This document shows, in pieces, positions 3,807 through 47,079 of a DNA stretch of 64,000 nt. Position numbers and translations under genes: made by a program. Positions within the stretch are counted from its first letter, which is position 1, and the number at the start of each line of letters is the position of its first letter. The stretch covers positions 310,001 through 374,000 of the forward strand of contig JAJVIF010000002.1 in assembly GCA_022072165.1 (NCBI GenBank), read 5' to 3'. This stretch comes from a bacterium. Its GTDB lineage: Bacteria > JAJVIF01. The notes under the pieces are model-generated. The model saw nothing but the letters and a program-made list of their open reading frames with translations, was not told the origin of the DNA and searched no databases.

Positions 3807-4802
3807 TTAGAACTGGAACGTCGCCAGGGTCCGCCAGCCTTCTGTACTGTAATGGTAGTCGTCGGTTAACCGCTCAATTTTCGGTCCTTGCGGACCGATC
3901 GGATCCGGCACGAAGTTTTCATTCAGGCCGATACCATCGATCCAGCGAGGGCGCCCGTCCGCCAGGATCACCCGCCAACGGATGTCCTGCGTTGAGTCGT
4001 TAGCCTCCAACAGCACCCCTCCTGGGCCAGGCCACGCCTGATGGGGGAGCGGCATCCCCTCCCCCCTCGGTACGCAGTCCACCATGGTCCAGAGTTCCTC
4101 AATCGTCTCAGGAAAGCGCCCCCGATCGGTCGAGAATTTAAAGAGGAGCTGGGAGTATGTTTCTGCAAGATGTTTTTGTCGAATGCGCAATGGGGTGTCT
4201 GGTGGACGTCGCGTCCCGGCGAGGAATTGCCGGGCCTGCTCGTAGCTCCGCACATAGAAGCCGACATTCACCACATCCACCGTGTGCTTGTCTACCGGCA
4301 TCTGGCGGGAACCATGGATTTCAATCCGGAGTTGTTCCGGTGCAAAGTCGAGCCATACTCCTGGGGACTCCGGGGGCACCGAAGCGCTGGCCGTGTGCAG
4401 TGTCAGCGGTTGCCCTTGACTGTTTGCCGGTGCCAGGAGCCAGAGCCCGGCGGCCTCCAGGGCTGCGGCATCCGGAGGCAACCCGCCTGTGAGTTTCAGA
4501 TAGCTGCGAACACATTTGGTCAGAGAGTGCTGCACGAAACTGGCCTGCAGCCCAGTAATGTGCACCTGGTGATCGGCCATCCAGCCCTGGTAGTACCCGG
4601 TGCTGAACTCGTTTGCGCTGAATCGCGCAGTTGCAGGAACGGTAGCCGAGGGCCGTTGCTGGGGAGACGCCGGAGGAAGAAACTGGCGCTGCAGTGCTCC
4701 CAGCTGTGACAACCCGGACTGACTGCATCCGGGCGTTACGACTCCACCCAGTAACAGCAGGACCCCGATGATCCAACGCTGACTTTGCATGACGACTGAC
4801 AT
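3807..4802 (-). CDS. lipoprotein with two pilin-like GxxP segments (cassette 1, second gene)
   Basis: 331-residue protein starting at ATG 4802, which has GGAGG seven bases upstream. The N-terminus is a lipoprotein-type signal (hydrophobic core, then TPGC). The mature part contains two segments with the layout of pseudopilin cores, an amphipathic helix with Tyr followed by Gly-x-x-Pro and a helix. These are SYLKLTGGLPPDAAALE and QLLFKFSTDRGRFPETIEEL. It lies 42 bases after the Cys-rich protein gene and is probably cotranscribed with it. The same gene order, signal type and double GxxP layout recur at 28871-30372. No known family was recognised; an envelope role is inferred. Confidence 0.7.
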   Translation of the reverse strand: MSVVMQSQRWIIGVLLLLGGVVTPGCSQSGLSQLGALQRQFLPPASPQQRPSATVPATARFSANEFSTGYYQGWMADHQVHITGLQASFVQHSLTKCVRSYLKLTGGLPPDAAALEAAGLWLLAPANSQGQPLTLHTASASVPPESPGVWLDFAPEQLRIEIHGSRQMPVDKHTVDVVNVGFYVRSYEQARQFLAGTRRPPDTPLRIRQKHLAETYSQLLFKFSTDRGRFPETIEELWTMVDCVPRGEGMPLPHQAWPGPGGVLLEANDSTQDIRWRVILADGRPRWIDGIGLNENFVPDPIGPQGPKIERLTDDYHYSTEGWRTLATFQF

Positions 4803-4844: not shown

Positions 4845-5429
4845 TCAGACTTCCGTCGGACAGCAGTCCGACTCCGCACAGTTCAGACAGATCTCGGGTG
4901 GATACCCGGCTGCGGAGCAAGGCCCGGGAAATCCGGGGGGCACGAAGCAATTCTGGCCTTCCATCGGCGTCGGTGGACACAACTCATGTGATGAGCGCTC
5001 AGGGTCATTACTCCAAATCTCGAAATAGCTCAGATTGCCATAACAGAGATTGAATTTATCGCAGCCTACAGACGACCCAGTGATCTCATGGCGACCGCCT
5101 GCGGCATCGAAAAGCAGCGCCGGGATTGTTTCGCAGGCCTCTGCCCCTAACCATTCGCCACTCTCTTCTTCCCGATGGAAACAAGCCAGATCTGCCCACG
5201 GGCCGACGGTTTTCACCTGGTAATTGCAAACCATGAGCGTATGCGTAACCGGGTCCTCACAAACATAGGTAACAGGCTTGCTGCAATGAACAAATTCTTC
5301 CACGTAGTAGACGCAGCAGCCGAAATCCACGGGCTCTTCCGAATGCCCCACTTGGGGAGCTAAAAGCACCACCACCGCCAGGGCCAGCAACCCGGCTTTA
5401 CGGACTAACGTGAAAGATCTGAAGCGCAT
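4845..5429 (-). CDS. Cys-rich secreted protein (cassette 1, first gene)
   Basis: 194-residue protein. ATG 5429 is preceded by GAGGAGG at good spacing. An in-frame ATG at 5453 lies almost at the predicted transcription start and is less likely. A signal peptide of about 29 residues ends near VGHS-EE. The mature ~165 residues hold 16 cysteines, an even number typical of disulfide-stabilised exported proteins, including CC pairs near both ends. No catalytic motif or family was recognised. GC content is visibly lower than in neighbouring genes. Expression is predicted from the CT-repeat promoter at 5469-5497. Confidence 0.7.
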   Translation of the reverse strand: MRFRSFTLVRKAGLLALAVVVLLAPQVGHSEEPVDFGCCVYYVEEFVHCSKPVTYVCEDPVTHTLMVCNYQVKTVGPWADLACFHREEESGEWLGAEACETIPALLFDAAGGRHEITGSSVGCDKFNLCYGNLSYFEIWSNDPERSSHELCPPTPMEGQNCFVPPGFPGPCSAAGYPPEICLNCAESDCCPTEV

Positions 5430-5468
5430 GATGCGGCACCTCCTCACGGTCATGTTTACTGTTATCTG

Positions 5469-5497
5469 ATTATAGAGAGAGAGAGAGAGAGAGTCAA
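5469..5497 (-). promoter_or_regulatory. sigma70-type promoter with dinucleotide-repeat spacer (predicted phase-variable)
   Basis: Read on the minus strand: TTGACT (5492-5497), a 17-base spacer made only of alternating C and T (5475-5491), then TATAAT (5469-5474). The predicted transcript starts near 5462 and reaches the Cys-rich gene after a leader of about 33 bases that contains GGAGG. Change of a repeat tract in a -35/-10 spacer switches promoters such as Haemophilus hifA/hifB. Slippage by one unit would give spacers of 15 or 19 bases. Confidence 0.75.
5474..5493. repeat. AG/CT dinucleotide tract (10 units)
   Basis: Uninterrupted AG repeated ten times on the plus strand, overlapping the inner edges of both promoter boxes of the Cys-rich/lipoprotein cassette. 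It is the only perfect dinucleotide microsatellite of this length that I saw in the window. Confidence 0.95.
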
Positions 5498-5527
5498 GCG
5501 TCCTCAATGAAATTGTCACGACACAAA

Positions 5528-5551
5528 CATCCCCCGGTTGCCCGGGGGATG
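5528..5551 (-). terminator. perfect 10-bp hairpin between murC and cassette 1
   Basis: Arms CATCCCCCGG (5528-5537) and CCGGGGGATG (5542-5551) flank a TTGC loop. It lies after the murC stop (minus strand) and before the cassette promoter, so it probably ends murC transcription and insulates the switch. Only a weak T-rich run follows (TTTGTGT). Confidence 0.6.
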
Positions 5552-5687
5552 CCTGTTCACACGCTCTCGCTCGCTTACCTCACAGGAGGTCGCTCATGCG
5601 ACAAAAGAAGCTGTGGGGGTCCGGGCTGGCAGGCCGTGGAACCCTGATGGGTGTCGCGACGAATGCTGGAGGTCCTGCAGAAAGGCG

Positions 5688-28870: not shown

Positions 28871-29923
28871 TTATGGCAAGCGATGGTGACCAGTGGACTG
28901 AGACTGCGCCAGATTGGCGGGATCAGCGGGTCGTGGAGCATCGATGCGTGGCACGGTCTGCAAGGTACTCCAGTCCGCCCAGAATTCCACACCCCGCAGC
29001 CAGGAGTCGATGCTCTGCTGGACTCGCGGGTTCGTGGGATATCCCACCGGGAGTACCGAGGTGTTGCGACCATCTGCACTCTCATGTTTCAACAGCAGGC
29101 GCGGCTCGGTCGATGAGCCCTCAAGAAGCAGCCCAAAAGACTGTCCATCTCCTGAACGGAAAAAGGTCCGTTGTGGATATGCCGCTTCCAGCGCACCGAC
29201 TGATTCGCGAATCAGCGCGAGTTCGTACATTTGGAACGCTTCCAGTGGAGTCACTGGATAGCTTCCAAGCTGCGCACGATAGGTAGAGATCACGAGACAG
29301 AGATTTGAGGCGTACATCCCGAGGCTGGGATCGACACCCCGGAAATCCTGCTGGCGCAAGCGTGCACCGGTTTCGGTCTCCCATGAAGGCGCAAAGAAGC
29401 TCGTAAAGGGCCGCAAAGGAGCCCCATCGAATGCCGTCGACTCGATCACCAGATCGAACGGCTGGAGAGTAGATCGCGGATCAAGCCACATCTGAGGGTA
29501 CTGCGCCGTAGGTCCAGCTGCCCACAGCGGCCAGGGTACACCATCCGGCGTAAGGGGCCAGGCGACAGTCCCTGGTAGCAGATTTTCGACGCGCGAGGGA
29601 AGCTGTCCGTTAACGCCATAGTGCAGGTTAAGAGCATTGTTTAGCAGCGGCAGCATCAGAAGACGCTGCGCAATCGCGATACTGTGCACATCGCCCTGCT
29701 CCAGCCCGGAACGCAGATCAAAGGAACGTAACTGCGCCTCAGTCCAGTCAGCGCCAGGCTGGGTGGCGACTCTCGCGGATGCCGGAGGTGTCGGGTCCAA
29801 GGTTTCCAAGGGACGGGAACTTTGTTCCCGGCCCCCCACCTGACAGCCATTGAGGACGACAACCGCCCACAGCAGAATGCCGCTCAGGCTAAGAACTGCG
29901 TACCGTTGAGTTGTAGCTATCAT
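28871..29923 (-). CDS. lipoprotein with two pilin-like GxxP segments (cassette 2, second gene)
   Basis: 350 residues. ATG 29923 has GAGGAG upstream, and the signal peptide ends in a good lipobox (LNGC). As in the 3807-4802 protein, two segments have the pseudopilin-like pattern of helix, Gly-x-x-Pro, helix: LNLHYGVNGQLPSRVENL and VISTYRAQLGSYPVTPLEAF. It follows the cassette 2 Cys-rich gene by 35 bases. It is probably a distant paralogue of the cassette 1 lipoprotein. No family was recognised. Confidence 0.7.
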   Translation of the reverse strand: MIATTQRYAVLSLSGILLWAVVVLNGCQVGGREQSSRPLETLDPTPPASARVATQPGADWTEAQLRSFDLRSGLEQGDVHSIAIAQRLLMLPLLNNALNLHYGVNGQLPSRVENLLPGTVAWPLTPDGVPWPLWAAGPTAQYPQMWLDPRSTLQPFDLVIESTAFDGAPLRPFTSFFAPSWETETGARLRQQDFRGVDPSLGMYASNLCLVISTYRAQLGSYPVTPLEAFQMYELALIRESVGALEAAYPQRTFFRSGDGQSFGLLLEGSSTEPRLLLKHESADGRNTSVLPVGYPTNPRVQQSIDSWLRGVEFWADWSTLQTVPRIDAPRPADPANLAQSQSTGHHRLP

Positions 29924-30408: not shown

Positions 30409-30440
30409 AGTATTCTCTCTCCCTCTCGCGCGCCTGTCAA
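30409..30440 (-). promoter_or_regulatory. candidate promoter of cassette 2 with simple-sequence spacer
   Basis: On the minus strand TTGACA (30435-30440) is followed by a 20-base tract of GC and GA dinucleotides with few interruptions (30415-30434), then AATACT (30409-30414), four of six matches to TATAAT. The predicted leader of about 30 bases matches the geometry of cassette 1. The spacer is longer than optimal, so it may be weak or off in this state. Confidence 0.5.
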
Positions 30441-44820: not shown

Positions 44821-47079
44821 GTGACCCTCGATACCCGTCAACTTCGCACCCTGATTGGACGCTTCCGGGCGCAACATGCCCTGGAAGTCGGGGCGCGTGG
44901 CCTCTTCTATGGCGGTCTGGGATCAGCAGTTGTCATTCTGGCTGACAAGATCCGGCCGTTTCCCACCTCCTGGGACCCGGGCTTTCTCGCACTGGGCGTT
45001 GGTGTCGGCCTCGGAGTGCTGGCGGGGGCCTGTGCGCTGCTGAAGCGCTATCAACTCGAGGATGCCGCCCGGGCGATTGACGCGCACTATGGGCTCCAGG
45101 AGTTGCTCGGGTCGGCGCATGAACTCGCGCCGGTCGCCGCGGGCGAGTTCGAAGCGGCGGTCGCGACGGCGGCTGACCGGCTGGTGAAGTCGCAGAACTT
45201 CACCCGCGATTTCCGGCTTCGCCCACCCGCGTATACCCGTCAGGCGACCGCCAGCATCGCGGTGGCTGGTCTCCTCATTTTTGTGCCGCCGCTGCAAACC
45301 CTGAATCCGGCGAAACGGGCAGAACTCGCGGAACTCAAAGCCCGGGAAGCGGCGCTGCAGGAACTCGCCCGCGACCTGAAGGAAATCCGCAAAGACGATG
45401 CCGCCCTGGAGGAACTCGCCCGGGAGGTGGAGGACCTGGCGGTCCGCTCCCAGAAGCAGCGACTGACCAAAGAGGACTTCCTGCGCGAACTGGATGAGAT
45501 TCAGAAAGAACTCGAATCCCGGATGGCGGACCTCGACAAAGAGGGGACCGCGAAAGCGCTGGAGTCGCTGAAGGAATCGATGTCGGATCTCGCGATCCCC
45601 GAGGTGGGTGAAGCGAAGGACCTCGCGGCGCAGATGGATGCCCTCCAGAAGCGTCTGGAAAAGAAGGACCTGAAGTTCGATCAGCTCGACCAGCTGGAAA
45701 AGACCCTCAAAGCCCAGCAGGAAAATCTGAAAGACCACAAAGAACTCAACAGCCTGAACAAAGAGCTGGGGCGTATGCGCGAGGAAGCGCTGAAGCAGCA
45801 GCAGGAGAAGCTGGGCGGCGAGGTGAATCGCCTGCTGGATGAGATGTCCAAAGAGGCGAAAGAGGGCGCGCAGAAGACCCCCGAGCAGCTCAAACAGCAG
45901 TTACAGCAGCAGGTCCAGCAGATGCAGCAGGAGGCCCGACAGGGGCAGCTCGGGCAGGAAGACACCAACAGCCTGCAGCAGAAAATCGATCAGCAGCGCC
46001 AGTCGGACCCCGCATCCGCCACCCGGATGCAGGAGCTCAACGACCGCCTCAACCAGGCCCTCAGCAAAGAACAGCAGCTGGGCAACGAGGTCCAGCAGCA
46101 GCAGTCCCAGAATCAGCAACCGTCACAACAATCCCAGCAAGGCCAGCAGGGCGAACAGCAACAGGGGCAACAGTCCCAGCAGGGGCAGCAGGGCGAACAG
46201 GCCCAGCAAGGCCAGCAGTCCCAACAGGGACAGCAGGGGGAGTCAGGACAACAGCCGGGCCAGCAGTCCCAGCAGGGACAGAGCGCAGGCCAGCAGCAGT
46301 CCGGCCAGGGGCAACAAGGACAGTCCGGCCAGTCACCCAGCCAGCAGCCCTCCCAGAATCCTGATGGCCAGGGGCAGGGACAGGGCCAGATGACGGTCGA
46401 GCAGTGGATGCAGCAACAGCAGCAGTCGCAGCAGGGGAACTCCCAGGGTCAGGGCGGTCAGCCGATGGAAGGCTCTCCGCAACTCGGACCCCAGGGTCAG
46501 AATCCCGGTCAGGGGCAGGGTCAGGGGAGTGGCCAGGGGTCCCAGGGCTTCTCCTCCATGTCCCCGGAAGAAATGCGCAACTGGGCTGACATGCTCAAGG
46601 AGTACCAGGGTCTCTCTTCCACCAATCGCAAGCTGGGACAGACTCGTAGCGGCGGATCTGGCAAGCCCGGTGAGGGGAGCGGCGCCGGAGGCGGCAACGG
46701 CTGGGGCCTCGGGCATAACCCCGGAGGGACTCCCTCGAATCAGGGGAGCGGGCAAGCCCAGAACCAGCCGGGGATGAAAACACAACAGAGCAAGCTGACC
46801 CTGGACCAGATGCTCGACTTCCAGGCGCTCTACGATCCCCATCTCATAGATGCCCGGATCCGCGACGAGCACAAAGTCCAGGGCTACCTCCAGGAAGGCG
46901 AGTCCGGCGGCTTTACGATGGTTAAAGCCCCCAACGTGGAAGAGGGGGATGCGCTGACGCCGTACTTTTCCGTGGACCCCAAGACCGCCGATGCGGAGGT
47001 CCAGGCCCTGGAAAATCAGGAAATCCCGGCGAATCTCAAGGACCTGGTGCGGCAGTACTTCGACAGCCTGAAGCAATAG
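44821..47079 (+). CDS. membrane protein with long Gln/Gly/Ser-rich repeat region (DUF4175-like)
   Basis: 752 residues from GTG 44821 (AGGAGG upstream). There are two hydrophobic helices at ~25-75 and another at ~145-160. The segment QLEDAARAIDAHYGLQELLGSAHEL is typical of large membrane proteins found near MoxR/BatA genes and of DUF4175 proteins. Residues ~170-400 are a charged coiled coil (ELARDLKEIRKDDAALEEL). About 415-575 is almost pure Gln/Gly/Ser, and the end (IPANLKDLVRQYFDSLKQ) matches the tail of those proteins. A cell-envelope scaffold role is inferred. Confidence 0.7.
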   Translation: MTLDTRQLRTLIGRFRAQHALEVGARGLFYGGLGSAVVILADKIRPFPTSWDPGFLALGVGVGLGVLAGACALLKRYQLEDAARAIDAHYGLQELLGSAHELAPVAAGEFEAAVATAADRLVKSQNFTRDFRLRPPAYTRQATASIAVAGLLIFVPPLQTLNPAKRAELAELKAREAALQELARDLKEIRKDDAALEELAREVEDLAVRSQKQRLTKEDFLRELDEIQKELESRMADLDKEGTAKALESLKESMSDLAIPEVGEAKDLAAQMDALQKRLEKKDLKFDQLDQLEKTLKAQQENLKDHKELNSLNKELGRMREEALKQQQEKLGGEVNRLLDEMSKEAKEGAQKTPEQLKQQLQQQVQQMQQEARQGQLGQEDTNSLQQKIDQQRQSDPASATRMQELNDRLNQALSKEQQLGNEVQQQQSQNQQPSQQSQQGQQGEQQQGQQSQQGQQGEQAQQGQQSQQGQQGESGQQPGQQSQQGQSAGQQQSGQGQQGQSGQSPSQQPSQNPDGQGQGQGQMTVEQWMQQQQQSQQGNSQGQGGQPMEGSPQLGPQGQNPGQGQGQGSGQGSQGFSSMSPEEMRNWADMLKEYQGLSSTNRKLGQTRSGGSGKPGEGSGAGGGNGWGLGHNPGGTPSNQGSGQAQNQPGMKTQQSKLTLDQMLDFQALYDPHLIDARIRDEHKVQGYLQEGESGGFTMVKAPNVEEGDALTPYFSVDPKTADAEVQALENQEIPANLKDLVRQYFDSLKQ
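46090..46530 (+). repeat. Gln-rich coding minisatellite
   Basis: Imperfect CAG/CAA/GGC-based units (commonly 9-15 bases, CCAGCAGGGGCAG-like) repeat through this part of the membrane-protein gene. The repeat keeps the reading frame, so changes in copy number would lengthen or shorten the Gln-rich region rather than disrupt it. Confidence 0.8.

Follow-up and report, generated by a model that had tools for sequence, protein, structure and literature searches.

In Haemophilus influenzae, a tract of nine to eleven TA units lies between the -35 and -10 elements of hifA/hifB, and a change in unit number shifts their spacing (PMC2651432, PMC3899988). A repeat in the promoter spacer likewise sets the transcription of an exported protein at porA of Neisseria meningitidis (PMC3899988). 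Dinucleotide insertions and deletions occur in the repetitive promoter spacer of vmm in Mycoplasma mycoides, and each member of the vlp surface lipoprotein family of M. hyorhinis has its own poly-A promoter tract (PMC10502178). At sabA of Helicobacter pylori, a promoter-proximal T-tract slips and tunes transcription (PMC4081817).

The promoter described here resembles hifA/hifB, where surface-structure genes are controlled, in that a dinucleotide tract lies within the -35/-10 spacer. The repeat unit of hifA/hifB is TA and the locus is one divergent fimbrial promoter pair, whereas CT, AG and GT units were found here at ten operons, which encode unrelated exported proteins and no fimbrial genes. 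The porA tract is homopolymeric G at one locus, against dinucleotides at ten loci here. That of sabA adjoins the -35 element and acts through RNA polymerase alpha/UP-like contacts, not core spacing. The vmm and vlp systems belong to AT-rich, wall-less host pathogens, whereas the present lineage has 63% GC and carries peptidoglycan genes (murC); in contrast to the poly-A tracts of vlp, the present operons have two genes and mixed dinucleotide units. Judged on its anatomy, the present system would work like hifA and vmm. An analogy to hifA/hifB and porA had been drawn in an earlier note on this DNA and holds, the repeat lying in the -35/-10 spacer there too (PMC2651432, PMC3899988).

The DNA analysed (the window) was a 64-kb stretch, G000:C2:310001-374000, of a 3.26-Mb genome comprising 4 contigs, 99% complete and with approximately 63% GC. 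Read on the minus strand, the promoter region is CGCTTGACTCTCTCTCTCTCTCTCTCTATAATCAG. The earlier note had described TTGACT and TATAAT separated by 17 bp of pure C/T sequence, and these were found on the minus strand at 5497-5469 (Table 1). A perfect short tandem repeat fills the spacer, and the recognisable -35 and -10 elements (5/6 and 6/6) stand at near-optimal spacing. The leader with GGAGG and the signal-peptide gene that it had reported were located at 5444-5440 and from the ATG at 5429, and its description of the controlled genes as an exported Cys-rich protein and a lipoprotein fits P0001 and P0002. The promoter was thus correctly identified but is not a one-off, being one of ten; a second cassette (30440-28871) also lies in the window. 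Among sigma-70-type sites at 17-bp spacing in the 64-kb window, the promoter scored highest (11/12), and the only second site with a score of at least 10/12 was at 30440. No other perfect dinucleotide array as long as the (CT)10 tract was present within the window. Transcription of the operon is predicted, from spacing alone, to start near 5462. The hairpin behind murC probably acts as a terminator that insulates the promoter from murC read-through. Elsewhere in the window, CAGCAG-type tandem repeats with periods of 9, 27 and 42 bp were observed at 46114-46281, probably a Gln-rich coding repeat.

Table 1. Features of the window promoter, its operon and the second window cassette, in window coordinates.
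Feature	Position	Strand	Remarks
-35 element TTGACT	5492..5497	-	consensus match 5/6; TTGAC common to 9/10 tract promoters
Perfect (CT)10 tract	5474..5493	-	17-bp spacer is bases 5475-5491, all alternating C/T
-10 element TATAAT	5469..5474	-	consensus match 6/6
Shine-Dalgarno-like GGAGG	5440..5444	-	between tract and ATG 5429
P0001, exported Cys-rich protein, 194 aa, class A	4845..5429	-	signal peptide, many Cys
P0002, lipoprotein, 327 aa, second gene of operon	3807..4790	-	
Strong hairpin	5520..5558	-	after murC; 68-nt fold -34.5 kcal/mol, z -4.65
Second-cassette promoter TTGACA-17-GAGAAT	30412..30440	-	spacer is interrupted GC/GA low-complexity sequence
Second-cassette Cys-rich exported protein, 137 aa	29959..30372	-	
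Second-cassette lipoprotein	28871..29923	-	lipobox guided choice of start codon

An alternative in-frame ATG for P0001 is present at 5453. P0001 gave no Pfam match up to an E value of 1, and neither P0001 nor P0002 reached the cut-off of a family model in Pfam, NCBIfam or PADLOC; Imm72 matched P0002 at E 0.024, under the cut-off of that model. No homologues of P0001 were found across 58 other genomes. AlphaFold predictions from single-sequence input had a mean pLDDT of 36 for P0001 and 32 for P0002. Signal peptides and lipobox-like motifs were recognised by inspection of the sequences, and the products may be surface-exposed. The second window cassette was missed by profile searches, and its GC/GA spacer is perhaps a decayed tract.

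The whole genome was searched for dinucleotide repeats with AG/CT, GT/AC and AT units. Exactly ten perfect tracts of AG/CT or GT/AC reach 14 bp in the 3.26 Mb. Each of them ends 12-71 bp before the start codon that opens a cassette of this family. TTGAC directly precedes nine of them, the exception being L051, which has no clear -35 element; the chance of such adjacency is approximately 0.4% per tract, allowing three offsets and both strands. AG/CT tracts with (AG)5 occur 11 times. Seven of these, 14-23 bp long, all begin directly after TTGAC or TTGACA, with CT units in the window and L039 and AG units in L037, L038, L040, L041 and L042. The remaining four are short (approximately 10 bp) and none adjoins TTGAC. 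Three of the ten long tracts are GT/AC: two in L072, at 5189 and 8684 and after TTGAC, and one in L051. No (AT)5, i.e. no 10-bp AT tract, was found genome-wide. One further GT/AC tract of at least 12 bp was present, 13 bp long, at C2:574789 (L073, near 3790). An unrelated lipoprotein gene starts approximately 20 bp downstream of this AC tract, which has no TTGAC and is possibly a young or chance repeat.

Expected counts were taken from a first-order Markov model built from the window, a simple null. For one genome it predicts 0.11 words of AG/CT and 0.02 of GT/AC at a length of 14 bp, and 4e-5 AG/CT words of 20 bp; a chance origin of the window tract was rejected. The pattern TTGAC-(AG)7 occurs in five copies here and in a single copy in each of 2 of the 288 other genomes. 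It is absent from the other genomes of the class (three class-level relatives), and its reversed control pattern had zero occurrences in the same comparison with 288 genomes.

Because the cassettes are paralogous, a single ancestral tract might have been copied along with them, and spacer sequence is weakly constrained; the promoters of a duplicated family might then have inherited or tolerated functionless repeats. We regard this as quite unlikely. The three different units are not simple copies of one tract, and when the flanks of nine tract promoters were compared the promoter DNA was unlike and TTGAC alone was invariant. The spacers of other promoters should be equally free to take up repeats, yet such tracts are confined to one gene family. 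This confinement, together with the anchoring to TTGAC, argues against neutral microsatellites.

On the sense strand, CT, AG and GT units occupy the same promoter position. AG/CT tracts are polypurine/polypyrimidine and triplex-capable, and a regulator that recognises the repeats, or unusual DNA (H-DNA) formed by them, would co-regulate all ten promoters at a fixed tract length. The units differ, however; GT is not polypurine/polypyrimidine and has no site in common with CT, and tract length ranges from 14 to 26 bp across the ten loci. Such a fixed-length role is very unlikely. The unit diversity disfavours a factor that reads the sequence and favours a selected, slippable spacer.

Downstream of each tract lies a gene for an exported Cys protein, followed by a lipoprotein gene. 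Two classes were distinguished. Class A comprises the window, L037, L039, L042 and the two L072 loci (L072a and L072b); in most of its Cys-rich proteins a CC pair lies close to the N-terminus of the mature form, and its lipoproteins are divergent. L039, L042 and both L072 loci carry two tandem Cys/lipoprotein pairs per operon. Class B comprises L038, L040, L041 and L051, all four with a lipoprotein of approximately 420-450 aa. The class B AG-tract loci (L038, L040, L041) encode a Cys protein with a conserved core, and L051 a short protein. With a profile of the class B lipoprotein, six members were found in this genome; in the rest of the 289-genome set it matched one protein in G003, of the same class, and gave a single marginal match elsewhere. 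None of the scanned cassette proteins reached the cut-off of a family model in Pfam, NCBIfam or PADLOC. The cassette list is probably incomplete, because the profile searches missed the second window cassette and one upstream of L037.

Some cassettes carry no repeat. These include L052 (TTGACA-17-GATAAT) and the cassette just upstream of L037 (TTGACG-17-CATATT), whose Cys protein and lipoprotein are 41% and 34% identical to those of L037. In the class-level relative G003, the homologue has TTGACA-17-TATATC upstream of the Cys gene, again repeat-free. The L050 cassette has neither a repeat nor a clear promoter. As the promoters recognised in repeat-free cassettes have 17-bp spacers, this is the ordinary form of the promoter; in operons with a tract, a microsatellite takes the place of the spacer, and three different units are used.

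Spacer lengths were assigned from the best -10 choices, with tract lengths from the assembly that may deviate by one repeat unit. The spacer is 16 bp in L040; 17 bp in the window, L038 and L072b; 15 or 17 bp in L041; 18 bp in L051; 19 bp in L042; 19 or 21 bp in L037; 21 bp in L039 (TACAAT); and 25 bp in L072a. Some tract loci have weak -10 hexamers (TACTTT, TAGCGT and TAACCT, 3/6 each), and ON/OFF calls for single loci are therefore uncertain. The clearest contrast is between the window (17 bp), predicted to be ON, and L039 (21 bp; hexamers 6/6 and 5/6), predicted to be OFF. At three promoters (L072:5189-5226, L072:8684-8714 and the minus strand of L039, start 4130) the start codon lies 6-8 nt past the putative -10 element, a gap that suggests leaderless mRNAs.

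Slipped-strand phase variation through -35/-10 spacing is the likely mode of control at the ten sigma-70-type promoters of this exported-protein system. The CT tract would give a housekeeping-type (sigma-70) promoter a spacer of variable length, with two bases gained or lost per step of slipped-strand mispairing. In the assembled state of 17 bp, the -35 and -10 elements would be well placed and the operon for the Cys-rich protein and lipoprotein would be ON; with a spacer of 15 or 19 bp it would be weak or OFF. A 2-bp step away from 17 falls outside the spacing tolerated by sigma-70 promoters, where the spacing effects are taken from E. coli-like sigma-70 and may not be those of this lineage. 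With the same device at ten operons with CT, AG and GT units, cells would differ in their combinations of exported products, and this population heterogeneity may amount to bet-hedging. The window promoter had been read as a phase-variable switch in the earlier note, which is partly supported. The idea is much strengthened because nine more tract promoters, with three units in all, precede paralogous operons, and because spacers range from 16 to 25 bp across loci while the repeat-free relatives stand at 17 bp.

Tract length might instead tune output stepwise, via spacing, helical phase or DNA shape, a form of graded control with a precedent in the T-tract beside the -35 element of H. pylori sabA (PMC4081817). 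Spacers of 16-19 bp may all keep some activity, and many intermediate lengths are present. Here, however, the core spacer itself consists of the tract, and a change of 2 bp from 17 exits the tolerated range, so steep steps are expected. Graded control is unlikely, and its difference from slippage-driven switching is one of degree, not kind.

Many repeat-tract contingency genes are switched by tracts that shift the reading frame. In 4 of the 10 loci, the window among them, the frame is open from tract to start, and slippage in an in-frame tract could act on translation there. In the other six, the frame running from the tract is closed by a stop codon ahead of the start, and on these grounds translational frameshifting was ruled out as a general mode. 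It would also leave unexplained the TTGAC directly before 9/10 tracts, and the window locus has a good ribosome site downstream of the tract and ahead of the start codon. As an account of the system it is very unlikely, and phase variation through promoter spacing is retained.

Similar promoters were sought in 84,980 species genomes, from which the source genome's records were perhaps left out. The pattern TTGAC-N(0-4)-(CT)6-N(0-6)-TATAAT was found in 13 stretches, six of them from one MAG, RB_MAG_00013, labelled Candidatus Campbellbacteria. Promoters of the form TTGACAn(CT)n-TATAAT number ten in this MAG (L023-L025, L030-L032, L083-L092), and their spacers are all even (14, 14, 16, 16, 18, 20, 20, 20, 20 and 22 bp). 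Most of the promoters share the leader AGCTTTCA...TGATTAACA...GGCG, and several precede lipoprotein-like genes. This multi-locus set of CT-spacer promoters seems to be a second, independent instance of such a design. In Helicobacter vulpis (L027:5497-5523), approximately 30 bp before an open frame, and in an Actinomycetes MAG (L028:854-880), a single TTGACT(CT)n-G-TATAAT promoter with a 15-bp spacer was observed; both are candidate phase-variable promoters. No system of repeat-driven phase variation in candidate phyla was found in the literature searched.

To our knowledge, most known cases of phase variation by a promoter spacer are single loci of host-adapted pathogens. The mechanism proposed here is of a known kind; its occurrence at many loci with different units appears to be new, as does the gene family. 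Every long AG/CT or GT/AC repeat of this genome of approximately 63% GC appears dedicated to spacer switching. The mixed units in the same position, together with the repeat-free relatives, constitute a natural experiment on the origin of spacer switches, and the role of the undescribed exported two-gene family can be tested on read-level repeat lengths alone. We suggest tentatively, at slightly less than even confidence, that in this bacterium, whose class is little sampled, ten independently slipping promoters with three units yield a repertoire of surface or secreted products that is combinatorial and phase-variable, drawn from diversified lineage-specific pairs of exported Cys-rich proteins and lipoproteins. 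If so, these products could serve as phage receptors, adhesins or recognition proteins, among others.
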